Source of the DNA: Candidatus Methylomirabilota bacterium
GTDB lineage: Bacteria > Methylomirabilota > Methylomirabilia > Rokubacteriales > CSP1-6
Reading direction: 5' to 3'
DNA length: 41,479 bases
NCBI GenBank assembly: GCA_035764725.1
Contig: DASTYT010000073.1
Location: 1 to 41,479 of the forward strand
The stretch's first letter is position 1. The number at the start of each line of letters is the position of its first letter. Of the stretch, positions 7,255-15,494 are shown piece by piece. A program made the translations under genes and the position numbers. The notes beneath the pieces are model-generated. The model was not told where the DNA came from and made no database searches. It saw nothing but the letters and a program-made list of their open reading frames with translations.

Positions 7255-8121
7255 ATGTCCGGCCCGGCTCTGGCACTGGTCCTCTGCGCCGCCGCCATTC
7301 ATGCCGCCTGGAACGCGCTCGCCAAGCGGGCCCGGGCGCCCATGGCCTTCCTGTGGTCGTCCGTGGCGCTCGCCACCCTCGTGCTGTCGCCGCTGGGCCT
7401 CGCCTATCTCCCGGACGAGGGCGTCCCGGCGTCCGCCATGCCGTTTCTCGGCGCCACCATCGTCATCCACTTCGTCTACTTCTACGCGCTGGCCCGCGCC
7501 TATTCGGCGGGCGGCGACCTCTCGCTCGTCTACCCGGTCGCGCGCGGGCTCGGCGTGGCGCTCGTGCCCGTGGTCGGCGTGCTTCTGCTGGACGAGCGCC
7601 CTTCGGCGCTTGGCGCGGCCGGCATCGTACTCGTGATCGCTGGGATCGTCGCCATCGCGCTCGCATCGCGCCTCAGCCTCTCGCCTTCGGGGGGAGGGGG
7701 CAGGGTGAGGGGGCTCGGCTGGGCGCTCCTCACGGGATTGACCGTCGCCGCCTATTCCCTGGTCGATAAGGTCGGGGTCTCGCGGCTGCACCCGCTGCCC
7801 TATCTCGTCATTCTCGGCGCGGGGATGACGCTGCTGCTGGCGCCGCCGGTACTGCGCGACCACCACGCGCTCGTCGAGGAGTGGCGGGCGAACTGGCGCA
7901 CGATCCTGCTCGCCTCGTGCATGAATCTCACCAGCTACCTGCTCGTGCTCTTCGCCTTCCGCCTGGCGAAGACGGGTTACGTGGTGGCGGCGCGCGAGCT
8001 CTCGATCGTGCTGTCGGTGCTGATCGGGTGGCTGTGTCTCGGCGAGAAGAATCTGGGGCGGCGGCTCGTGGGCGCCGCCGTGGTACTGGCGGGCGTGGCC
8101 TGCGTGGCCCTCGCGCGCTAG
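7255..8121 (+). CDS. DMT-superfamily (EamA) transporter
   Basis: 288 residues, with two EamA repeats of about five helices each (ten in total). The first repeat has AAIHAAWNALAKRAR and YPVARGLGVALVPVVGVLLL, and the second YSLVDKVGVSRLHPLPYLV, ending in a typical LGEKNLGRRLVGAAVVLAG. Such proteins are inner-membrane carriers of metabolites or amino acids; the substrate is not predictable. The ATG at 7255 is chosen because the first helix follows at once; the ribosome site is poor, and a TAGACT box ends 7 nt before it. It is divergent from the importer operon and convergent with the VPLPA-CTERM gene, with which it shares the palindrome CTAG as both stop codons. Confidence 0.9.
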   Translation: MSGPALALVLCAAAIHAAWNALAKRARAPMAFLWSSVALATLVLSPLGLAYLPDEGVPASAMPFLGATIVIHFVYFYALARAYSAGGDLSLVYPVARGLGVALVPVVGVLLLDERPSALGAAGIVLVIAGIVAIALASRLSLSPSGGGGRVRGLGWALLTGLTVAAYSLVDKVGVSRLHPLPYLVILGAGMTLLLAPPVLRDHHALVEEWRANWRTILLASCMNLTSYLLVLFAFRLAKTGYVVAARELSIVLSVLIGWLCLGEKNLGRRLVGAAVVLAGVACVALAR

Positions 8122-8780
8122 CCGCGCTTCCGGATCACGCGGCGCGCCCCGAATCCGAGGAGGCCGAGCCCGAGCAGCGCAAGGGAGGCGGGGAGGGGCA
8201 CCGGCGTGACGACGGGCTCGAGGAGGAAATTCGGGCCGAAAAATCCGTTATCGCTGCCCGGCGACGCGTCGGAATTCGGGAATTGTAGATTTGCTCCGAC
8301 GGCAAACTTGGCCGAGTCGAAGTTCGCCAGGGCCGGGTCGAGGATCACGTCGTCCTGGGACGCACGAAACATGGTCACGTCCTCGATGATGACCGATCCC
8401 AGCACATAGAATCCCGGCGCCAGGTCCACGTCGGCGATGTCCTCGAACAGCCACTGCCCGGCTCCGAGCACGGACGGGACCGCGATGTCCGCGCCGCCGC
8501 CTGCGGGAACAGTGGTCGAGGCGAGCAGTGTGCCTGCCGCCGTCCACAAGCCCACCGGGGTGCCGACCTCCAGTCCATTGGAGCCCTCGTCCCATACGCC
8601 GAGCGCGGTCACACGCACCGGCGTCTTCACCTCGACAGCCCAACCGATGGTGAAGGAACTATTCACATCAACTCCGGCAATTCCATCCCCGTTGATGTCG
8701 ATGGCCAGGCTAGCCGCGAGCGCGGGCAGAGGTGTCGCCAGAAGCGCCAACGCCAGCACGGCTCCCCGGAACCCGCGCAT
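8118..8780 (-). CDS. VPLPA-CTERM (PEP-CTERM class) secreted protein
   Basis: 220 residues. A Sec signal peptide is at 1-22 (cleavage near ALAAS), then a beta-rich domain of unknown function with a calcium-loop-like start (DINGDGIAGVDVN). At the C-terminus is a complete sorting signal: the motif VPLPAS at about 197, a hydrophobic helix (LALLGLGLLGFG) and a basic tail ARRVIRKRG. Proteins with this tripartite tail are recognised by an exosortase and linked to exopolysaccharide-producing Gram-negative bacteria; no exosortase is in this window. The start ATG has GAGGG upstream. A strong sigma-54 promoter lies about 60 nt before it. The domain is likely an envelope or matrix protein; the precise role is unknown. 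Confidence 0.85.
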   Translation of the reverse strand: MRGFRGAVLALALLATPLPALAASLAIDINGDGIAGVDVNSSFTIGWAVEVKTPVRVTALGVWDEGSNGLEVGTPVGLWTAAGTLLASTTVPAGGGADIAVPSVLGAGQWLFEDIADVDLAPGFYVLGSVIIEDVTMFRASQDDVILDPALANFDSAKFAVGANLQFPNSDASPGSDNGFFGPNFLLEPVVTPVPLPASLALLGLGLLGFGARRVIRKRG

Positions 8781-9154
8781 GCAGTTTCCCTCACGCTATG
8801 AGAGGCACAACGCTCTGCAACACCAATTAGCGCGAAGATGCAAGTGTCGCGCCATGCGCGGTGGATCACGAGTAAGCTGCGGTATTTGCGCGTTTGCGCA
8901 AAGAGACGAACGTAGTGCCGCAGTGATATGCGGGAATGTTGGCAAGAAACCTGACTCCGCGAGTCCTCACGCATGGCCCCGCCATCTCGCGGTTGGCGGC
9001 GCCGAGGTCCCGTAAATACGCGCGGCGCAAAGGGAAATCTAAGTAGGCGCATTCGCGGTGGGAAGTATATTCTCTGTAAACCCGGCTGACGGCGCTGGAG
9101 AATGATTTTCCAGTAATAGCACCTATAGAATGTCTATATCTGCATTCCGAGCGG
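8781..9154. other. 374-nt regulatory intergenic region, relatively AT-rich
   Basis: No convincing gene. It holds the sigma-54 promoter and, upstream of it for the minus-strand gene, candidate activator sites: the perfect 10-bp palindrome TTTGCGCAAA (8893-8902) preceded by a direct copy TTTGCGC (8885-8891), and GACTC-CGC-GAGTC (8953-8965). Nearer the methyltransferase stop are two more inverted repeats: a stem of 8 pairs at 9095-9113 (one G-U pair on the plus strand, a mismatch on the minus strand) and TATAGA-ATG-TCTATA (9124-9138). None has a U-tract long enough to be an obvious terminator. An open frame at 8866-9192 has no recognisable features. Confidence 0.5.
8839..8854 (-). promoter_or_regulatory. 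Sigma-54 (RpoN) promoter of the VPLPA-CTERM gene
   Basis: The minus strand reads TGGCGCGACACTTGCA, which keeps the diagnostic GG-N10-GC spacing and matches the TGGCAC-N5-TTGCA consensus at all but one position. Transcription would start about 12 nt downstream, leaving a leader of roughly 45-50 nt with the GAGGG ribosome site. PEP-CTERM genes are known to be controlled by RpoN together with the PrsK/PrsR two-component system, so the context fits well. Confidence 0.75.
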
Positions 9155-9823
9155 TCACAGCCGCGTGGCGCGAACCATCCATTCGAGACCACGCCGACGC
9201 TCGATCGACGCCGCCGGCGGCCCGGATTCCACGATGGCGAAGTGCGGCGCGAGCAACCGCTCCACCTCGTCGTACGCGACGGGGAAGGGCGGCCCGTCCT
9301 CGCCCTCGCGCAACGGATAGAAGCACCCGAGCAGCGTGCCGCCGCGCTTCAAGATGGTACGCAGCACGTCGACATAGTCCGCGCGCCGCGCGGGATCGAT
9401 GGCGCAGAATCACGTGTACTCCCACACGCCGTCGAAGGCCTCGCGGTGGTCGCGGCCGAGGGTGAAGACGTCGCGCTGCTCGAACGTCGCGCCCACACCC
9501 CCCGGGGAGGTGAGGCCACGCGCTTCCGCGACGGCGGCGGCCGCGAAGTCGAAGCCGACCACGCGATAGCCCTGGCGCGCGAGCAGCCGCACGTCATGCC
9601 CGCGCCCGCAGCCCGGGACGGCGATTCGCGGCCGCGGGTCGTCTGCCGGTTGGGGGAGAGCGGGGGCCATTTCTCGGCCCCCGCTGATGGCGAATCGCCC
9701 GCCCCCGGCAAGCCACGCTCCCAGCACTGGACTGGGCTCGCCCAGCTCCCAGCCGTCCTGCCCCTCGGCATAGAGCCCTTCCCAGAAGGCGGGCGTGCTT
9801 ACGGGCTTCCGATCGAGTCCCAT
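9155..9823 (-). CDS. TPMT-family SAM methyltransferase with in-frame UGA, candidate selenoprotein
   Basis: Reading through one UGA (9410-9412, codon 138) gives a normal-length protein of 222 residues. Before the stop: FWEGLYAEGQDGWELGEPSP and the SAM motif VPGCGRGHDVRLLARQGY. Directly after it, in the same frame: FCAIDPARRADY, then LKRGGTLLGCFYP and GPPFPVAYDEVERLL, all conserved blocks of the thiopurine/thiol/halide methyltransferase group. The UGA sits in the block EYT-x-FCAID, where from memory some relatives have Cys or Phe. A stem-loop resembling a bacterial SECIS begins 10 nt later. The alternatives are a nonsense pseudogene or a sequencing error. The start ATG 9823 overlaps the HAD gene by 25 nt and has GAGGG 7 nt before it. 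Last gene of the peptide-importer/mlrC unit. Confidence 0.65.
9369..9399 (-). ncRNA. Candidate bacterial SECIS element after the in-frame UGA
   Basis: Downstream of the UGA on the minus strand, a lower stem of five pairs (UCGAU with GUCGA, one G-U pair) surrounds an asymmetric internal loop and a perfect 6-bp upper stem (CCGCGC with GCGCGG, 9379-9393) with the apical loop GGC. The apical loop starts 22 nt after the UGA and begins with G, which fits the usual bacterial SECIS rules (loop about 16-37 nt after UGA, G in the first loop positions). GC-rich DNA forms hairpins easily, so this is supportive rather than decisive. Confidence 0.5.
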
Positions 9824-10464
9824 CCGAAGCCCTCGAAGTGATCGATGACGCGCTCGGCCCCCGCCGCATGGAGCTCTTCCGCGGAATAGGCAGTCGCCAC
9901 GCCGATCGCGCGCATGCCCGCGGCGCGCGCCGCGTGGATGCCCACCACCGAATCTTCGAACACCAGGCATTGCGCGGGATCCGCGCGGAGGCGACGCGCC
10001 GCCAGCGTGTAAACCTCGGGATTCGGCTTGCCGTACGTGACGTCGTCGGCGGTCACCACCACCGGGAAGTGATGCAGGAGCCCGATGCCGCGCAGGAGGT
10101 GATCGACGTCGTACGACGACGCGGACGTGCCGACGGCCAGCGGCACGCGGCGGCGCGCCAGATCCCCCACGAAGCCGGCGACCCCCGCTACCGCGCGCGG
10201 CCCCTGGCGCGAGAGGCGCGCGTAGTGGTCGCGCTTGCGACGCGCGAGCTGATAGGCCTCCCAGTCCGGCACGTGCCGGCCGAGGAGGAGCGGGATGGCT
10301 TCCTCGCTGGGCCGCCCGATGGTGAGCCGCCAGTAGTCCGGCCGCGGGGGCGACTCACCCAGCTCGGTCAGGAGCGCGTCCCACGCGGCGCGATGCCATG
10401 CCCCGCTGTCGAGCAGCACTCCATCCATATCGAAGATCAGCGCACCGATGGGAGCGATCATCAC
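9799..10464 (-). CDS. HAD-superfamily hydrolase, beta-phosphoglucomutase-like
   Basis: 221 residues. HAD motif I is FDMDGVLLDS (nucleophile Asp about residue 11), motif II is GTSAS, Lys of motif III lies in YGKPNPEVY and motif IV is VFEDSVVGIHAARAAGM. A helical cap follows motif I, as in subfamily IA/beta-phosphoglucomutase or phosphoglycolate-phosphatase-like enzymes. Substrate not predictable. The start is GTG at 10464 or the adjacent ATG at 10461; GAGG lies very close to both. It begins 6 nt after mlrC and overlaps the following methyltransferase gene by 25 nt, so it is co-transcribed with both. Confidence 0.88.
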   Translation of the reverse strand: MMIAPIGALIFDMDGVLLDSGAWHRAAWDALLTELGESPPRPDYWRLTIGRPSEEAIPLLLGRHVPDWEAYQLARRKRDHYARLSRQGPRAVAGVAGFVGDLARRRVPLAVGTSASSYDVDHLLRGIGLLHHFPVVVTADDVTYGKPNPEVYTLAARRLRADPAQCLVFEDSVVGIHAARAAGMRAIGVATAYSAEELHAAGAERVIDHFEGFGWDSIGSP

Positions 10465-10470
10465 CTCAGT

Positions 10471-11949
10471 CTAGGGGTAGGTGGTATCGGGGTCGAGCGG
10501 GAAGATGGGTCGCCGCACCCGCTTGAAGTCGAAGCGCGCAAGGTTGGACGACGAGAGTCCCGGCGCGTCCACCTCGATGATCGCGCGGGCGATGGGCTCG
10601 AAGGCGGCCCGGTAGTGAATGGTGGACTTCACCACGAGGATCTTGTGCTCGAGCGGGTCGAGGCCGACGAAGCGGATCATCTCCGGATCCAGCGTTTGCC
10701 AGCGGTAGGAGATGAGGACCACCTTGACGTCGTTGACGTCCAGCACCGCGGTGATGCCGAGGCGGCCGGGGAGACCACGCGCCATCGGCCCCTTGTGCAC
10801 GAAGCGGCCGTCCGACAGGGTGCGCACCACCCCGGTGACGCGGAGGGGGGCGCCGTGACGCTGGTCCACCTTGCCGCCCACGTCGAGGGTGACCGACTGA
10901 CCCACGCCCGCCTTGACGCAGGCGGCCACCGCGGCCGGATCCCAGATGCACGCCACCACCGCCGAGCGCGCGCCCACGCGCAAGAGCTCCCGCAGGATCT
11001 CGGTGCCGTCGCCGGCCGCGCCGCCGCCCGTGTTGTCGGCCATGTCGGCGAGCACGATGGGCCGGCCCTCGGCGGTGAGCGCGCGCGCCACCGCCTCGGA
11101 GACGGGCAGGCCCTGGTGGATGAACTCGTGGCGATGCTCCCAGGCGGTGCGCGCGAGCTGATCGGCGAGGCGATCCGCGAGGGCCTGATCGCCGTCGGTG
11201 ACGACGTAGACGCTGAGGCCGGCCTGGGGGATGTCCGCGTGGGGAAACCCGGCGAAGAGAGAGATCGAGATGACCCGGGGATCCTTCTCCATCTCGTCCG
11301 CCATGTCGTAGAGCCGTCGCATGGGCCCGCGCGCCGTCCCCTGGTTCCCCAGGGGAGGAAGGATGGGCGGGGTGCGCAGCGCGGCGGTTGGACGAAGCCG
11401 GCCCGCGATCACCTGCAGCAGGCGTTCGGTGGCTTCGACGCCGCGCTCGGCCATGTCGACATGGGGATAGGTCTTGTAGCCGTGGAGGAGATCGGCGCCG
11501 CGCACCATCTCCTCGGAGAGATTGCCGTGGAAGTCGAGGCTCACCGCGATGGGCACGGAGGGCCCGACGACCGCGCGTACCGCGCCGATGAGGTCGCCCT
11601 CGCCGTCGTCGATGCCGTCGCACACCATCGCCCCGTGCAGATCGAGCAGCACACCGTCGAGCGGCCCCGCCGCGCGGAGATCGGCGAGCATGCGCTGCTT
11701 CACGTGCGCGTAGATCTCCTTGGTGACGAGGCCGGCCGGCGACGCCGCCGCCGCCACCGAGGGGATGAGCCGCACGCCGTGGCGCTCCGCCGCGTCGATC
11801 ATGCCGCCCAGGCAGGTGCCGGTGCCGCGGTACGTCTCCACGAGCTCACCGCCGTAGTGGAGATTCCGCGCTTCGAACTGGCGTCGGTCAGTCGGAATGT
11901 TACTGAAGGTATTGGTCTCGTGGGACATCATCGCGATGAACACGTTCAT
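10471..11949 (-). CDS. M81-family (MlrC-like) metallopeptidase
   Basis: 492 residues, the usual length. The N-terminus MNVFIAMMSHETNTFSNIPT and the blocks LLDLHGAMVCDGIDDGEGDL and SLDFHGNLS are the signature of the MlrC/M81 family, containing the likely metal ligands (His in LDLHGAM, Asp/His in LDFHGN). The C-terminal MlrC domain includes ADMADNTGGGAAGDGTEIL. MlrC cleaves the linear tetrapeptide in microcystin breakdown, but most family members are in organisms not linked to microcystin and probably hydrolyse other peptides or amides. Gene order supports that: it directly follows a dipeptide-type importer (12-nt gap). The ribosome site GGAG is 6 nt before ATG. Confidence 0.92.
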   Translation of the reverse strand: MNVFIAMMSHETNTFSNIPTDRRQFEARNLHYGGELVETYRGTGTCLGGMIDAAERHGVRLIPSVAAAASPAGLVTKEIYAHVKQRMLADLRAAGPLDGVLLDLHGAMVCDGIDDGEGDLIGAVRAVVGPSVPIAVSLDFHGNLSEEMVRGADLLHGYKTYPHVDMAERGVEATERLLQVIAGRLRPTAALRTPPILPPLGNQGTARGPMRRLYDMADEMEKDPRVISISLFAGFPHADIPQAGLSVYVVTDGDQALADRLADQLARTAWEHRHEFIHQGLPVSEAVARALTAEGRPIVLADMADNTGGGAAGDGTEILRELLRVGARSAVVACIWDPAAVAACVKAGVGQSVTLDVGGKVDQRHGAPLRVTGVVRTLSDGRFVHKGPMARGLPGRLGITAVLDVNDVKVVLISYRWQTLDPEMIRFVGLDPLEHKILVVKSTIHYRAAFEPIARAIIEVDAPGLSSSNLARFDFKRVRRPIFPLDPDTTYP

Positions 11950-11961
11950 CGGCGTCTCCGA

Positions 11962-12882
11962 TCAGAGCTTGAGCCGCGGATCCAGCCAGTCGCGCAGGGC
12001 GTTGCCGATGAGGTTGATCACCAGCGTGGTCACGAAGATGGCGGCGCCCGGGAAGGCGGCGATCCACCACGAGTTCAGCATGTAGACGCGGCCCTCGCCC
12101 AGCATGTTGCCCCAGGCGGGGATGGGTGGCTGCACCCCGAGACCCAGGAAGGACAGGAAGGACTCCAGCACGATGACCTGGGCGACTTGCAGGGTCGCGA
12201 TGACCACGCTCGCCGAGATGAGATTCGGGAGGATCTGGCGGAAGATGAGGCGCCGGTGGCTCATCCCGAGGGCACGCCCCGCGGTGACGAACTCGCGCTC
12301 GCGGAGGGCCATGGTCTCGGCTCGGATCACGCGGGCGTAGAGGGGCCAGCCGGCGACCCCCAGCACCGCGATCATGTTGGGCAGGCTCGGACCCAGTACC
12401 GCGATCACCGCGAGGGCGAGCAGCACGAACGGGAAGACCAGGATGATGTTGACGAGCGTCATGATGATCCAGTCGATCGCGCCGCCGAAGTAGCCGGCGG
12501 CGAGCCCGGCGAGGATGCCGATGGTCGCGGACAGGATCACGGCCGACACGCCGACGATGAGCGAGATGCGCCCCCCGTAGATCACCCGCGAGAGGAGATC
12601 GCGCCCAACTTGGTCCGTGCCCAGCAGGTGGTCGGACGTCCCGCCCGCCATCCACGCCGGCGGCGACAGTCGATGGCGAATGTCCACCACGAGTGGATCG
12701 TGCGGGGCGAGCAGTGGCGCGAGAATCGCGCTGAGCACGATGACGAGCAGAATGGCGGCGGCGGCCACGCCGAAGCGCAGGCGCCGGAGCCGCCGGAGCA
12801 GGGGGGATCCCCGCTCGGCGTGAGGGGCGGCCTCGCTGGGCTGGAGGGCGACCTCGGGTGGGGCGCCGATCGCGTCGCTCAC
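11962..12882 (-). CDS. Dipeptide/oligopeptide ABC transporter permease (DppC type)
   Basis: 306 residues. A cytoplasmic N-terminal extension, one helix (about 36-58), then the periplasmic signature HLLGTDQVGRDLLSRVIYG and the BPD_transp_1 core. The ATPase-coupling EAA loop is ALGMSHRRLIFRQILPN. The start is GTG at 12882, overlapping the dppB-type stop as GTGA; the long open frame upstream is the dppB gene in another frame. It pairs with the DppB-type protein. No DppD/DppF ATPase genes follow; mlrC comes next. Confidence 0.92.
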   Translation of the reverse strand: MSDAIGAPPEVALQPSEAAPHAERGSPLLRRLRRLRFGVAAAAILLVIVLSAILAPLLAPHDPLVVDIRHRLSPPAWMAGGTSDHLLGTDQVGRDLLSRVIYGGRISLIVGVSAVILSATIGILAGLAAGYFGGAIDWIIMTLVNIILVFPFVLLALAVIAVLGPSLPNMIAVLGVAGWPLYARVIRAETMALREREFVTAGRALGMSHRRLIFRQILPNLISASVVIATLQVAQVIVLESFLSFLGLGVQPPIPAWGNMLGEGRVYMLNSWWIAAFPGAAIFVTTLVINLIGNALRDWLDPRLKL

Positions 12883-13799
12883 GCGCCGGCCCGGATGCGG
12901 GGGTCGATGAAGCCGACGATCACGTCGACCACCAGATTCACCAGCACGATGATGAGCGCGAGGAGCACCACCGCGCACTGCACCACGGGGAAGTCCTGGT
13001 TGCGGATGGAGTCCACGGTGAGGCTGGCCACGCCCGGCCACGCGAAGACGGTCTCGGTGATGATGGCCCCGCCCAGGAGCTGGCCGAACTGGAGCCCCAG
13101 AACGGTGATGACGGGGATGGACGCGTTCCGGAAGGCGTGCTTCCACACCACGCGGCGCTCCGCCACGCCCTTGGAGCGCGCGGTCTTGATGTAGTCCATG
13201 CTCATCACCTCGATCATCCCCGAGCGGACCAGGCGCATGGTGATGGGCGCGAACGCCATCCCCAGGCAGAGGGACGGCATGAGGAAGTGCTGCCACGTGC
13301 CGTAGCCGGAGGCGGGGAGGAGCTTCATCCGTACCGAGAGGATGATGATGAGCATGATGCCGAACCAGAAGAGTGGCAGAGCCTGGCCGGCGGTAGCGAT
13401 CACCGTGCAGAGCGTGTCCACGATCGAGTGACGGCGCAGGGCGGCGAGCGTGCCGAGCGGGATCGCGATGAGGAGCGCGACGGCGAGGCCAGCGAAGGTC
13501 AGGTAGATGGTGGGCGGCATGCGCTCCATCACGAGCGGGAAGGCGGGGACGTCGCCGTACCACGAGCGGCCGAAGTCGCCGCGCACCGCATTGCTCGCGA
13601 AGGTCCAGTACTGGACGTAGATGGGGCGGTCGAGCCCCAGCAGGTGCCGATAGCGCTCGAACTCTTCCTTGCCGGCGTTCTGGGGCAGGAGGAGGAGGAC
13701 GGGGTCGCCGATGACATGGAGGATGGCGAAGGACAGGATGGAGATGCCGATCACCACCACGACGAGCTGGGCGAGCTGGCGCGCGAGGTAGCGTCGCAT
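12879..13799 (-). CDS. Dipeptide/oligopeptide ABC transporter permease (DppB type)
   Basis: 306 residues. The N-terminal helix (YLARQLAQLVVVVIGISIL), the conserved GDPVLLLLPQNAG, and the EAA coupling loop KTARSKGVAERRVVWKHAFRN (the last part shortened) identify it as DppB-like. About six helices, ending with VDVIVGFIDPRIR as usual. ATG at 13799 is preferred; a TTG codon immediately upstream could also serve. No Shine-Dalgarno is evident, and the 99-nt gap to the binding-protein gene contains a strong hairpin. Confidence 0.92.
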   Translation of the reverse strand: MRRYLARQLAQLVVVVIGISILSFAILHVIGDPVLLLLPQNAGKEEFERYRHLLGLDRPIYVQYWTFASNAVRGDFGRSWYGDVPAFPLVMERMPPTIYLTFAGLAVALLIAIPLGTLAALRRHSIVDTLCTVIATAGQALPLFWFGIMLIIILSVRMKLLPASGYGTWQHFLMPSLCLGMAFAPITMRLVRSGMIEVMSMDYIKTARSKGVAERRVVWKHAFRNASIPVITVLGLQFGQLLGGAIITETVFAWPGVASLTVDSIRNQDFPVVQCAVVLLALIIVLVNLVVDVIVGFIDPRIRAGA

Positions 13800-13827
13800 C
13801 AACGAGGAGACGGCGCCCGCTCACTCA

Positions 13828-13866
13828 CGGCCGCCGCGCCCCCTCGTGCGTGGAGGCGGGCGGCCG
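13828..13866 (-). other. Intercistronic stem-loop after the peptide-binding-protein gene
   Basis: A perfect 8-bp inverted repeat (CGGCCGCC at 13828-13835 with GGCGGCCG at 13859-13866), extendable inside by about four pairs. It lies between the binding-protein stop and the permease start. No U-tract. Likely an mRNA stabiliser or partial terminator, as at the two other importer loci here. Confidence 0.6.
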
Positions 13867-13898
13867 GGAGCGGCAACAACACGGGCGCCGGAAGCAGC

Positions 13899-15437
13899 CT
13901 ACTTTTTCCGAGGAGTGGCGAGGAAGAGCCGGTCCACCTCGTCGGCGGGCGCGGTGTACTCCACGCGGTTGCTGATGCCCCACACGCCGCGCAGCCCCCA
14001 CTTGTAGAGGTAGGCGGCGTCGTCGAAGAGGAGCTTCTGGGCCTTCACGTATATCTCGGTGCGCTTCTTCGCGTCGAGGGTGGACCGGCCGGTGGCGATC
14101 AGGTCGTCCAGCTCCTTGTTGCAGTAGTAGCTGTACGACTCGCCGCACTTGAACACGTCGTAGAGGATGGCGTCGGCGTCGAACACCGAGTAGTAGCCCC
14201 ACGACCAGTTGAACATCGGGCCGCCCTTGCCTTCCTTGATTCGCGCCACCAGCACGGTGTTGTCGCCGATGTAATTGCGCTTCACGCGGAAGCCGGCCTT
14301 GGCCATGTCGGCCACGATGGCGTCGTTGGTCTGCTGGATGGCGGGCTCGACGATGGGCGGGCCCTCGTGGAACACGATGTCCACGCCGTTGGGATAGCCG
14401 GCTTCGGTGAGGAGCTTCTTGGCCGCGGCGAGGTCTTGCTTGTACGGCTTGAGGTTCGGGTCCCAGCCGAAGGCCATGGGATTGATGCCGGTGGCCACCC
14501 GGTCGCCCAGCCCGTTCAGCACGTGCTTGATAATCCCGTCCGAGTCCACCGCGAGATTGGCGGCCTGCCGCACCTTCCGGTCCGTGAAGGGATTGGGCCC
14601 GCCTCGCGCGGCCTGGTCGAGCTGTAGCATGGCGGTGCGGAGGATGGGTGAGGTGCCGGTGCGGGCGACCCCCGACTTCTCGATCACGTCCATCTGGTCC
14701 GGCGGCACCGCCTTGATCACGTCCACGCCGCCGGAGAGGAGCTCGGCGATCTCCGTGGCCTTCTCGGGGATGATGCGGATGCGGAGGTACTTGTAGTAGG
14801 GCTTGGGGCCCCAGTAGTCGTCGTTCCGGACGAGCAGATGCTCTTGCTTCCGGCTCCACTTCACGAGCTTGTAGGGGCCGGTGCCGATCGGATTCTCTGC
14901 CATCCACTGGTCGCCCTTCTCGCGGATCACCTTCTCGGACTGCATCACCTGGGCGGTGAGGCGCTCGACGAAGAGCGGGTAGGGGCCGTCGGTCTTGAAG
15001 CGCACCGTGTAGTCGTCCACCACCTCCACGCTCTTGATCTTGGCGTGGTTGCCGCGGGCGGTCATCTTCCGCGCGGGATCGAGCACGCGGTCGAAGGTGG
15101 CCTTGACGTCCTTCGCGGTGAAGGGGGTGCCGTCGTGGAACTTGACGCCCTGGCGCAGCTTCACTTCCCAGGTGGTGTCGTCGATGTTCTTCCACGAGGT
15201 GGCGAGATTCGGGCCCACCCGCCGCGTCTTGAGGTCGCGCGTGGCGAGATGGTCGAACGCGTGATAGCCGAGGATGATCGCCTCGCGCAGCACCGACGCG
15301 GGTGGATCCCACGAGTCGATGTCGGACTGCAGCGAGTAGACGATGGTGTCTTCCTTGGTCTGCGCGCTCGCCGGCCCGGGCACGACGAGGGCGACGGCGA
15401 GGAGCAGCGCGAATCCGGGGACCGCGGCGCGGCGCAT
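13899..15437 (-). CDS. ABC transporter substrate-binding protein, family 5 (peptide type)
   Basis: 512 residues. Sec signal peptide 1-25 (RRAAVPGFALLLAVALVV then a cleavage site near ASAQ). The mature protein shows SBP_bac_5 features: an early DSWDPPASVLRE, the block VKFHDGTPFTAKDVKATFDR (about 95-115) and the C-terminal domain with DDAAYLYKW. It binds a peptide or similar solute in the periplasm. ATG at 15437 is supported by a near-perfect Shine-Dalgarno AAGGAGGT and by the signal peptide. First gene of the unit SBP - dppB - dppC - mlrC - HAD - methyltransferase, with a consensus promoter upstream. Confidence 0.93.
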   Translation of the reverse strand: MRRAAVPGFALLLAVALVVPGPASAQTKEDTIVYSLQSDIDSWDPPASVLREAIILGYHAFDHLATRDLKTRRVGPNLATSWKNIDDTTWEVKLRQGVKFHDGTPFTAKDVKATFDRVLDPARKMTARGNHAKIKSVEVVDDYTVRFKTDGPYPLFVERLTAQVMQSEKVIREKGDQWMAENPIGTGPYKLVKWSRKQEHLLVRNDDYWGPKPYYKYLRIRIIPEKATEIAELLSGGVDVIKAVPPDQMDVIEKSGVARTGTSPILRTAMLQLDQAARGGPNPFTDRKVRQAANLAVDSDGIIKHVLNGLGDRVATGINPMAFGWDPNLKPYKQDLAAAKKLLTEAGYPNGVDIVFHEGPPIVEPAIQQTNDAIVADMAKAGFRVKRNYIGDNTVLVARIKEGKGGPMFNWSWGYYSVFDADAILYDVFKCGESYSYYCNKELDDLIATGRSTLDAKKRTEIYVKAQKLLFDDAAYLYKWGLRGVWGISNRVEYTAPADEVDRLFLATPRKK

Positions 15438-15494
15438 GGCGACCTCCTTCTTCAGCAGGGCGGAAGGGACGGTGCGGTCGGGCAAGAGGGCCAC

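Follow-up and report, generated by a model that had tools for sequence, protein, structure and literature searches.

An in-frame UGA at a conserved cysteine codon of a TPMT-like methyltransferase gene in a selenocysteine-using bacterial lineage

The window analysed here, a stretch of 41,479 nucleotides from a Methylomirabilota genome, carries a run of minus-strand genes that encode a solute-binding protein, two peptide-type permeases, an MlrC-type metallopeptidase, a HAD-family hydrolase and, as its last member, a TPMT/halide-methyltransferase-like protein (Table 1). The methyltransferase frame spans 222 residues with a single internal TGA, at codon 138, and ends at a terminal TGA (9157-9155). 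An initial annotation of this DNA had remarked on an operon shared with MlrC and a peptide importer, and the gene run bears this out. A homologue of the HAD hydrolase is found in 37 of 52 loci from relatives and adjoins the methyltransferase gene in the 12 loci that have coordinates listed; MlrC is found in 13 of the 52, many of which are too short to reach it and some of which are duplicated. A small protein with a PEP-CTERM motif is encoded close to the methyltransferase gene (8118-8780, minus strand).

Table 1. Features of the methyltransferase locus in the window, with example positions of UGSC selenoprotein genes
Feature	Position	Strand	Description
TPMT/halide-methyltransferase-like gene	9155..9823	-	222 codons with the UGA read through (frame 9823-9155); Pfam TPMT; AlphaFold2 model
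Hairpin proposed as SECIS	9379..9393	-	6-bp upper stem CCGCGC/GCGCGG; loop GGC from nt 26 after the U of UGA
In-frame UGA, codon 138	9410..9412	-	Codon read 9412-9410; Cys in relatives
HAD-family hydrolase	9799..10464	-	Pfam HAD_2 101.7 bits; directly upstream, overlaps the methyltransferase start
MlrC-type metallopeptidase (M81)	10471..11949	-	Pfam DUF1485 362 bits, MlrC_C 212.1 bits
Peptide-type ABC importer: two permeases and solute-binding protein	11962..15494	-	Pfam BPD_transp_1 (two genes), OppC_N, SBP_bac_5
UGSC selenoprotein genes (examples)	G000:C52:131234-131674; G000:C86:24875-25309; L229:14115

When the UGA is read through, the protein matches Pfam TPMT (PF05724) at 93.3 bits against a gathering cut-off of 26, over residues 62-202. 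The match crosses the UGA, in agreement with the earlier observation that homology lies on both sides of the one UGA, with the conserved blocks EYT before it and FCAIDP after it. The top NCBIfam match is the thiopurine/selenium-tellurium methyltransferase family TIGR03840 (TMPT_Se_Te), yet its score of 56.9 bits is far under the equivalog cut-off of 223.2 bits and membership was rejected. Among solved structures, those nearest in sequence are halide/thiol methyltransferases, namely 3lcc from Arabidopsis (E 1.6e-20), 9h0d, 9h0g, 9h04 (Tulasnella calospora) and 8ajp (Paraburkholderia xenovorans). The read-through protein as modelled with AlphaFold2 (mean pLDDT 84.1) also has 3lcc, a halide methyltransferase, as its top PDB match (E 1.1e-16, TM-score 0.76 normalised by query length), so the likeness to 3lcc extends to both sequence and fold. 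In the model the UGA position falls directly after the strand 130-136, where class I methyltransferases carry their active-site motif.

The UGA stands in place of an almost invariant cysteine. The initial annotation mentioned Cys at this position in some relatives, and named homologues with neither Cys nor UGA as a counter-case; Cys is present at both 138 and 140 in all of the 120 best homologues (best 120 of 1554). Among 346 proteins the site residue is Cys in 327 (a count that includes the query with a placeholder Cys), Leu in three and Ser in one, while 15 are without the motif. At the DNA level, TGC or TGT occupies the site in all 47 motif-matching loci of the 52 from relatives, some of which are one place present in two collections; L050, L053, L076, L077 and L078 do not match the motif pattern and stand outside both the 47 loci and the 32 distinct Cys sequences considered below. 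The nearest full-length cluster, 92% identical and with 14 members, likewise has Cys at the site. In contrast to these close relatives, the plant enzyme 3lcc has Phe aligned to the UGA, which indicates that a cysteine here is not needed by every enzyme of this fold. A search of the phylum gave a match to the methyltransferase gene in 42 of 96 genomes, and no stop lies within the match in the 41 others, the fragment in genome G036 stopping short of the site. The recurrence of UGA at position 138 in other homologues, which had been suggested as a check, was not seen among the matched genomes.

The sequence beyond the UGA appears to be under the same constraint as the sequence before it. When 17 relatives were compared, private changes at conserved sites numbered 0 of 51 after the UGA and 0 of 67 before it, and identity to P0002 is 128 of 137 residues before and 75 of 84 after. 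Judged by these alignments, the downstream half shows no decay, which would make a change to a stop either very recent or not real. Of the 57 single-base changes that would create a stop in the methyltransferase gene, only one falls on codon 138. In-frame stops are otherwise rare in the assembly, being found in none of 134 ABC_tran domains (150 scored out of 233 candidates) and none of 113 BPD_transp_1 domains, and with 0 of 247 transporter domains affected, sequencing error as an assembly-wide trait is not supported. A single base error at the UGA itself is possible.

The genome has the means to insert selenocysteine. The initial annotation had pointed to selA, selB, selC and selD as genes to look for in the same genome, and all four are present above family cut-offs: selC (69.1 bits), selA (572.2 bits) and selB (366.7 bits) are clustered on contig C99, and selD (272 bits) lies on contig C7. 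The absence of selB and selC, which the initial annotation had named as a refutation, is thereby not the case. Every one of the 58 genomes searched from the bacterial family has matches to the UGSC selenoprotein family (NF041046); the present genome has seven, the highest number in any one genome is 12, and there is one TGA in each place among the matches listed. These proteins occur in the same genomes and their UGA would be decoded by the same machinery.

A control for the form of SECIS elements in this lineage was assembled from 54 loci with UGA in the same bacterial family (50 UGSC, 4 FdhA; 37 distinct sequences), a set that represents few independent families. Counting the U of UGA as nucleotide 1, the loop of the best hairpin starts at nt 23 in 37 of 37 distinct sequences, with G at nt 23 and either U (33) or G (4) at nt 24; the six pairs nearest the loop form in every one of them. 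Among the UGSC sequences pairs 21-27 and 19-29 vary on both sides and pair 22-26 on one, while the remaining three pairs vary only between UGSC and FdhA; these base changes lend the control hairpin modest support. GrdB was tried as a further control and rejected, being matched in 24 of 58 genomes with no TGA among the matches listed.

The control was extended by scanning 848,630 bases of the present genome (about 16%) for in-frame stops flanked on each side by coding-like sequence. Six selenoprotein genes lie in this sample, comprising three of the UGSC family (L215, L216 and L229) together with L214, L199 and L212; since the L215 and L216 stretches were chosen for UGSC genes already among the 54 control loci, the new genes number four. 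Their loops start at nt 23 in four of the six, at nt 22 in L199 and at nt 21 in L212. L199 (4635-5288, minus strand) encodes a protein disulfide oxidoreductase (PDO_seleno_TRX, TIGR02187, 260.8 bits) in which the UGA belongs to a U-P-H-C motif and is followed by a SECIS-like loop at nt 22. L214 (3294-4484, minus strand) encodes an FdnG-type formate dehydrogenase-N alpha subunit, its UGA being followed by a GUC loop at nt 23; the formate dehydrogenase on contig C47 of the same genome is of the Cys type, without UGA. L212 (16127-17029, minus strand) is distantly related to the UGSC family and carries a U-S-T-C motif; its loop, GGUC at nt 21-24 (G at 22, U at 23), is slightly nearer the UGA than in other UGSC genes and belongs to a hairpin detected only when a bulge was allowed.

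Downstream of codon 138 the two-part stem-loop described in the initial annotation is present, with a 5-bp lower stem below the 6-bp upper stem, and the rule by which it was recognised (a G at the start of the loop and a spacing of 16-37 nt) agrees with the generic bacterial SECIS model as given in a figure legend of a 2026 review (PMC13188914). The candidate conforms to that model, with loop GGC, 6 bp, -9.5 kcal/mol and a spacing of 22 nt. So do 8 of the 32 distinct Cys-coding relatives and the sequence after 311 of 2717 codons in eight genes of the window, and the generic model is non-discriminating here. The register of the lineage is more demanding, a loop at nt 22-24 with at least 5 bp following 53 of the same 2717 codons. 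The candidate falls outside it: its loop starts at nt 26, whereas each of the 50 UGSC loci read has a loop that starts at nt 23, and the best stem of the candidate with a loop at nt 22-24 is 3 bp. Measured against loop starts of nt 21-23 in the SECIS elements examined from the lineage, it lies at least 3 nt further from the UGA. A hairpin score equal to or above that of the candidate (18) was reached at 7 of 90 TGA sites in the genome sample, of which four have loops at nt 22-23 (two UGSC, the FdnG type and the disulfide oxidoreductase), one is the candidate itself at nt 26, and two, L208 and L219, have loops at nt 20 and 24. The third UGSC gene, L215, scores 16 at nt 23, under the value of the candidate.

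Nor does the hairpin stand out in strength. Over the first 50 nt counted from the UGA the folding z-score is -0.35, with 61 of 200 dinucleotide shuffles folding equally well or better, and for the 31-nt hairpin of the initial annotation it is -0.60 (52 of 200 equal or better). About 20% of 20,000 synonymous recodings yield an equally strong stem, and equally strong hairpins follow 11 of 110 in-frame TAG or TAA stops with coding-like flanks in the genome sample. The strength of the candidate hairpin is at chance level. The same six base pairs are found in the Cys-coding relatives L048 and L074, and among the 32 distinct Cys sequences the numbers able to form each of the six pairs are 32, 11, 17, 17, 14 and 31. 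The hairpin may well have arisen as a side effect of the GC-rich codons that specify a conserved Pro-x-Arg-Arg stretch. An Rfam search of 8900-10100 returned no match. The earlier proposal that this structure is a SECIS element is not supported, in view of its register, its strength and its occurrence in two genes that encode Cys.

A further line of evidence comes from homologues that end at the site. Three metagenomic proteins, P0162 and P0200 from a search of short proteins and P0339 from a later search with an alignment of N-terminal pieces, stop precisely at the residue that precedes the Cys/UGA position, at EYT. The later search added only P0339, its best 120 of 2194 matches being mostly full-length (about 200 residues). 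The nearest relatives of the three among the proteins collected (P0305, 94% identical; P0206, 82%; P0246, 88%) continue beyond the site with Cys. In P0206 the sequence after CFCAIDPARR passes into an unrelated tail, presumably the result of assembly or adapter contamination. As far as protein sequences can suggest it, the three ends may be taken as moderate support, and only that, for selenocysteine. Clean ends well ahead of the reference end occur in 15 of 113 short proteins; nine of these are without a contig record, and two of the other six end exactly at the site. Because such ends are dense in this region, 8 of the 15 falling between -6 and +14 of the site, their exact coincidence is less surprising. 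One might guess that contig breaks at the GC-rich hairpin account for the ends in the homologues that have contigs; P0339 is on a contig of 535 bases. A near-identical short version of the present gene is absent among the 113 short matches, where the short frame of the window itself is also unlisted, and this absence, set against the 14-member Cys cluster, is weak evidence.

The likelihoods given to the competing readings of the UGA are judgements rather than computed values. It is probable that codon 138 is a real stop in the gene for a Cys-type enzyme, brought about by a private nonsense change or by a base or assembly error. This is favoured by the register of the hairpin, by its chance-level strength, by its presence in Cys-coding relatives and by the lack of a stop in any other genome searched. 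Against it speak the rarity of in-frame stops in the assembly, the single route in 57 that leads to a stop at this codon, the undecayed downstream half, the three homologues that end at the site, the agreement with the generic SECIS model and the small number of independent families in the lineage control. The gene would otherwise be that of an ordinary predicted halide/thiol methyltransferase, whose closest relatives have Cys at 138. Were the base genuine, translation would yield a piece of 137 residues without the C-terminal half of the predicted fold, and from the loss of that half the enzyme would be expected to be inactive in this strain. Termination at the UGA, loss of function and the choice between mutation and error as its cause are all matters that we infer. 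That the piece is itself a functional product is highly improbable: P0162, P0200 and P0339 do end at the same residue, but such a product would stop short of the strands and helices that make up the C-terminal part of the predicted methyltransferase fold, and the half of the gene that it dispenses with is conserved. Hardly more probable is low-level read-through of the UGA by a near-cognate tRNA, which would yield some full-length protein without SelB. The intact downstream frame fits such leakage, but UGA also terminates the methyltransferase gene and, at 11964, a permease gene, and there is no sign that it serves as an ordinary sense codon.

The chief competitor to a stop is selenocysteine, which we consider unlikely, though appreciably less so than either of the foregoing alternatives. 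The protein would then be a TPMT/halide methyltransferase of the Sec type, carrying the motif Sec-Phe-Cys close to its active site, and its SECIS element would lie about one codon further from the UGA than the known ones of the lineage. In its favour are the place of the UGA and the use of Sec in the lineage: the UGA replaces an invariant Cys and is followed by sequence without decay, selC, selA and selB are clustered and accompanied by selD, and UGSC proteins with a TGA in each listed match are found throughout the bacterial family. A Methylomirabilota MAG with 63 predicted selenoproteins is described in the 2026 review (PMC13188914), and replacement of Cys by Sec is put forward as a general trend in bacteria in another paper (PMC1794560). 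Agreement with the generic SECIS model and the three homologues that end right before the site point the same way. Against it stand a loop at nt 26 in place of 21-23, a hairpin of chance-level strength that two Cys-coding relatives also carry, and the other genomes searched, none of which has a stop at the site. Moreover, 15 of 17 families with Cys-to-Sec replacement were homologues of thiol-redox proteins in the same paper (PMC1794560), which the TPMT type is not, and sequences with a lone TGA may be sequencing errors, as another paper warns (PMC2398784). On this unlikely account, the Sec form would have arisen from the Cys form by a single base change, the GC-rich hairpin over the Pro-x-Arg-Arg stretch would serve as an off-register SECIS, and the switch would have occurred more than once, so accounting for the three homologues with their ends at the site. 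Of the proposal in the initial annotation, what holds is the UGA at an invariant Cys, the intact frame, the Sec machinery and the use of selenocysteine in the lineage; the SECIS is not supported, and no other genome searched has a stop at the site. The Cys of the suggested Sec-x-Cys pair is present at 140 in the 120 best homologues.

A selenoprotein of this type would differ from those already described. The methyltransferase-related Sec families tabulated in the 2026 review include MduS (for which Haft and Tolstoy 2025 is cited), a Methyltransferase/UXPK-star double selenoprotein and a selenoprotein arsenite methyltransferase, with motifs CxxU or UxxG, whereas the present one would be UxC and of the TPMT type (PMC13188914). 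The word 'thiopurine' is absent from the main text of that review. No TPMT-type selenoprotein was found in the titles and abstract openings of literature on selenoproteins with thiopurine or methyl halide methyltransferases, Rokubacteria or Methylomirabilota.

Collectively, the comparison with known selenoprotein genes indicates that the generic SECIS model is easily satisfied in GC-rich coding DNA, and that the lineage's own SECIS register is the sharper filter (53 against 311 of 2717 codons). If the UGA of the present gene does encode selenocysteine, it would establish a new family of Sec enzymes, and one that came about by a one-step change from Cys to Sec on a ready-made hairpin.
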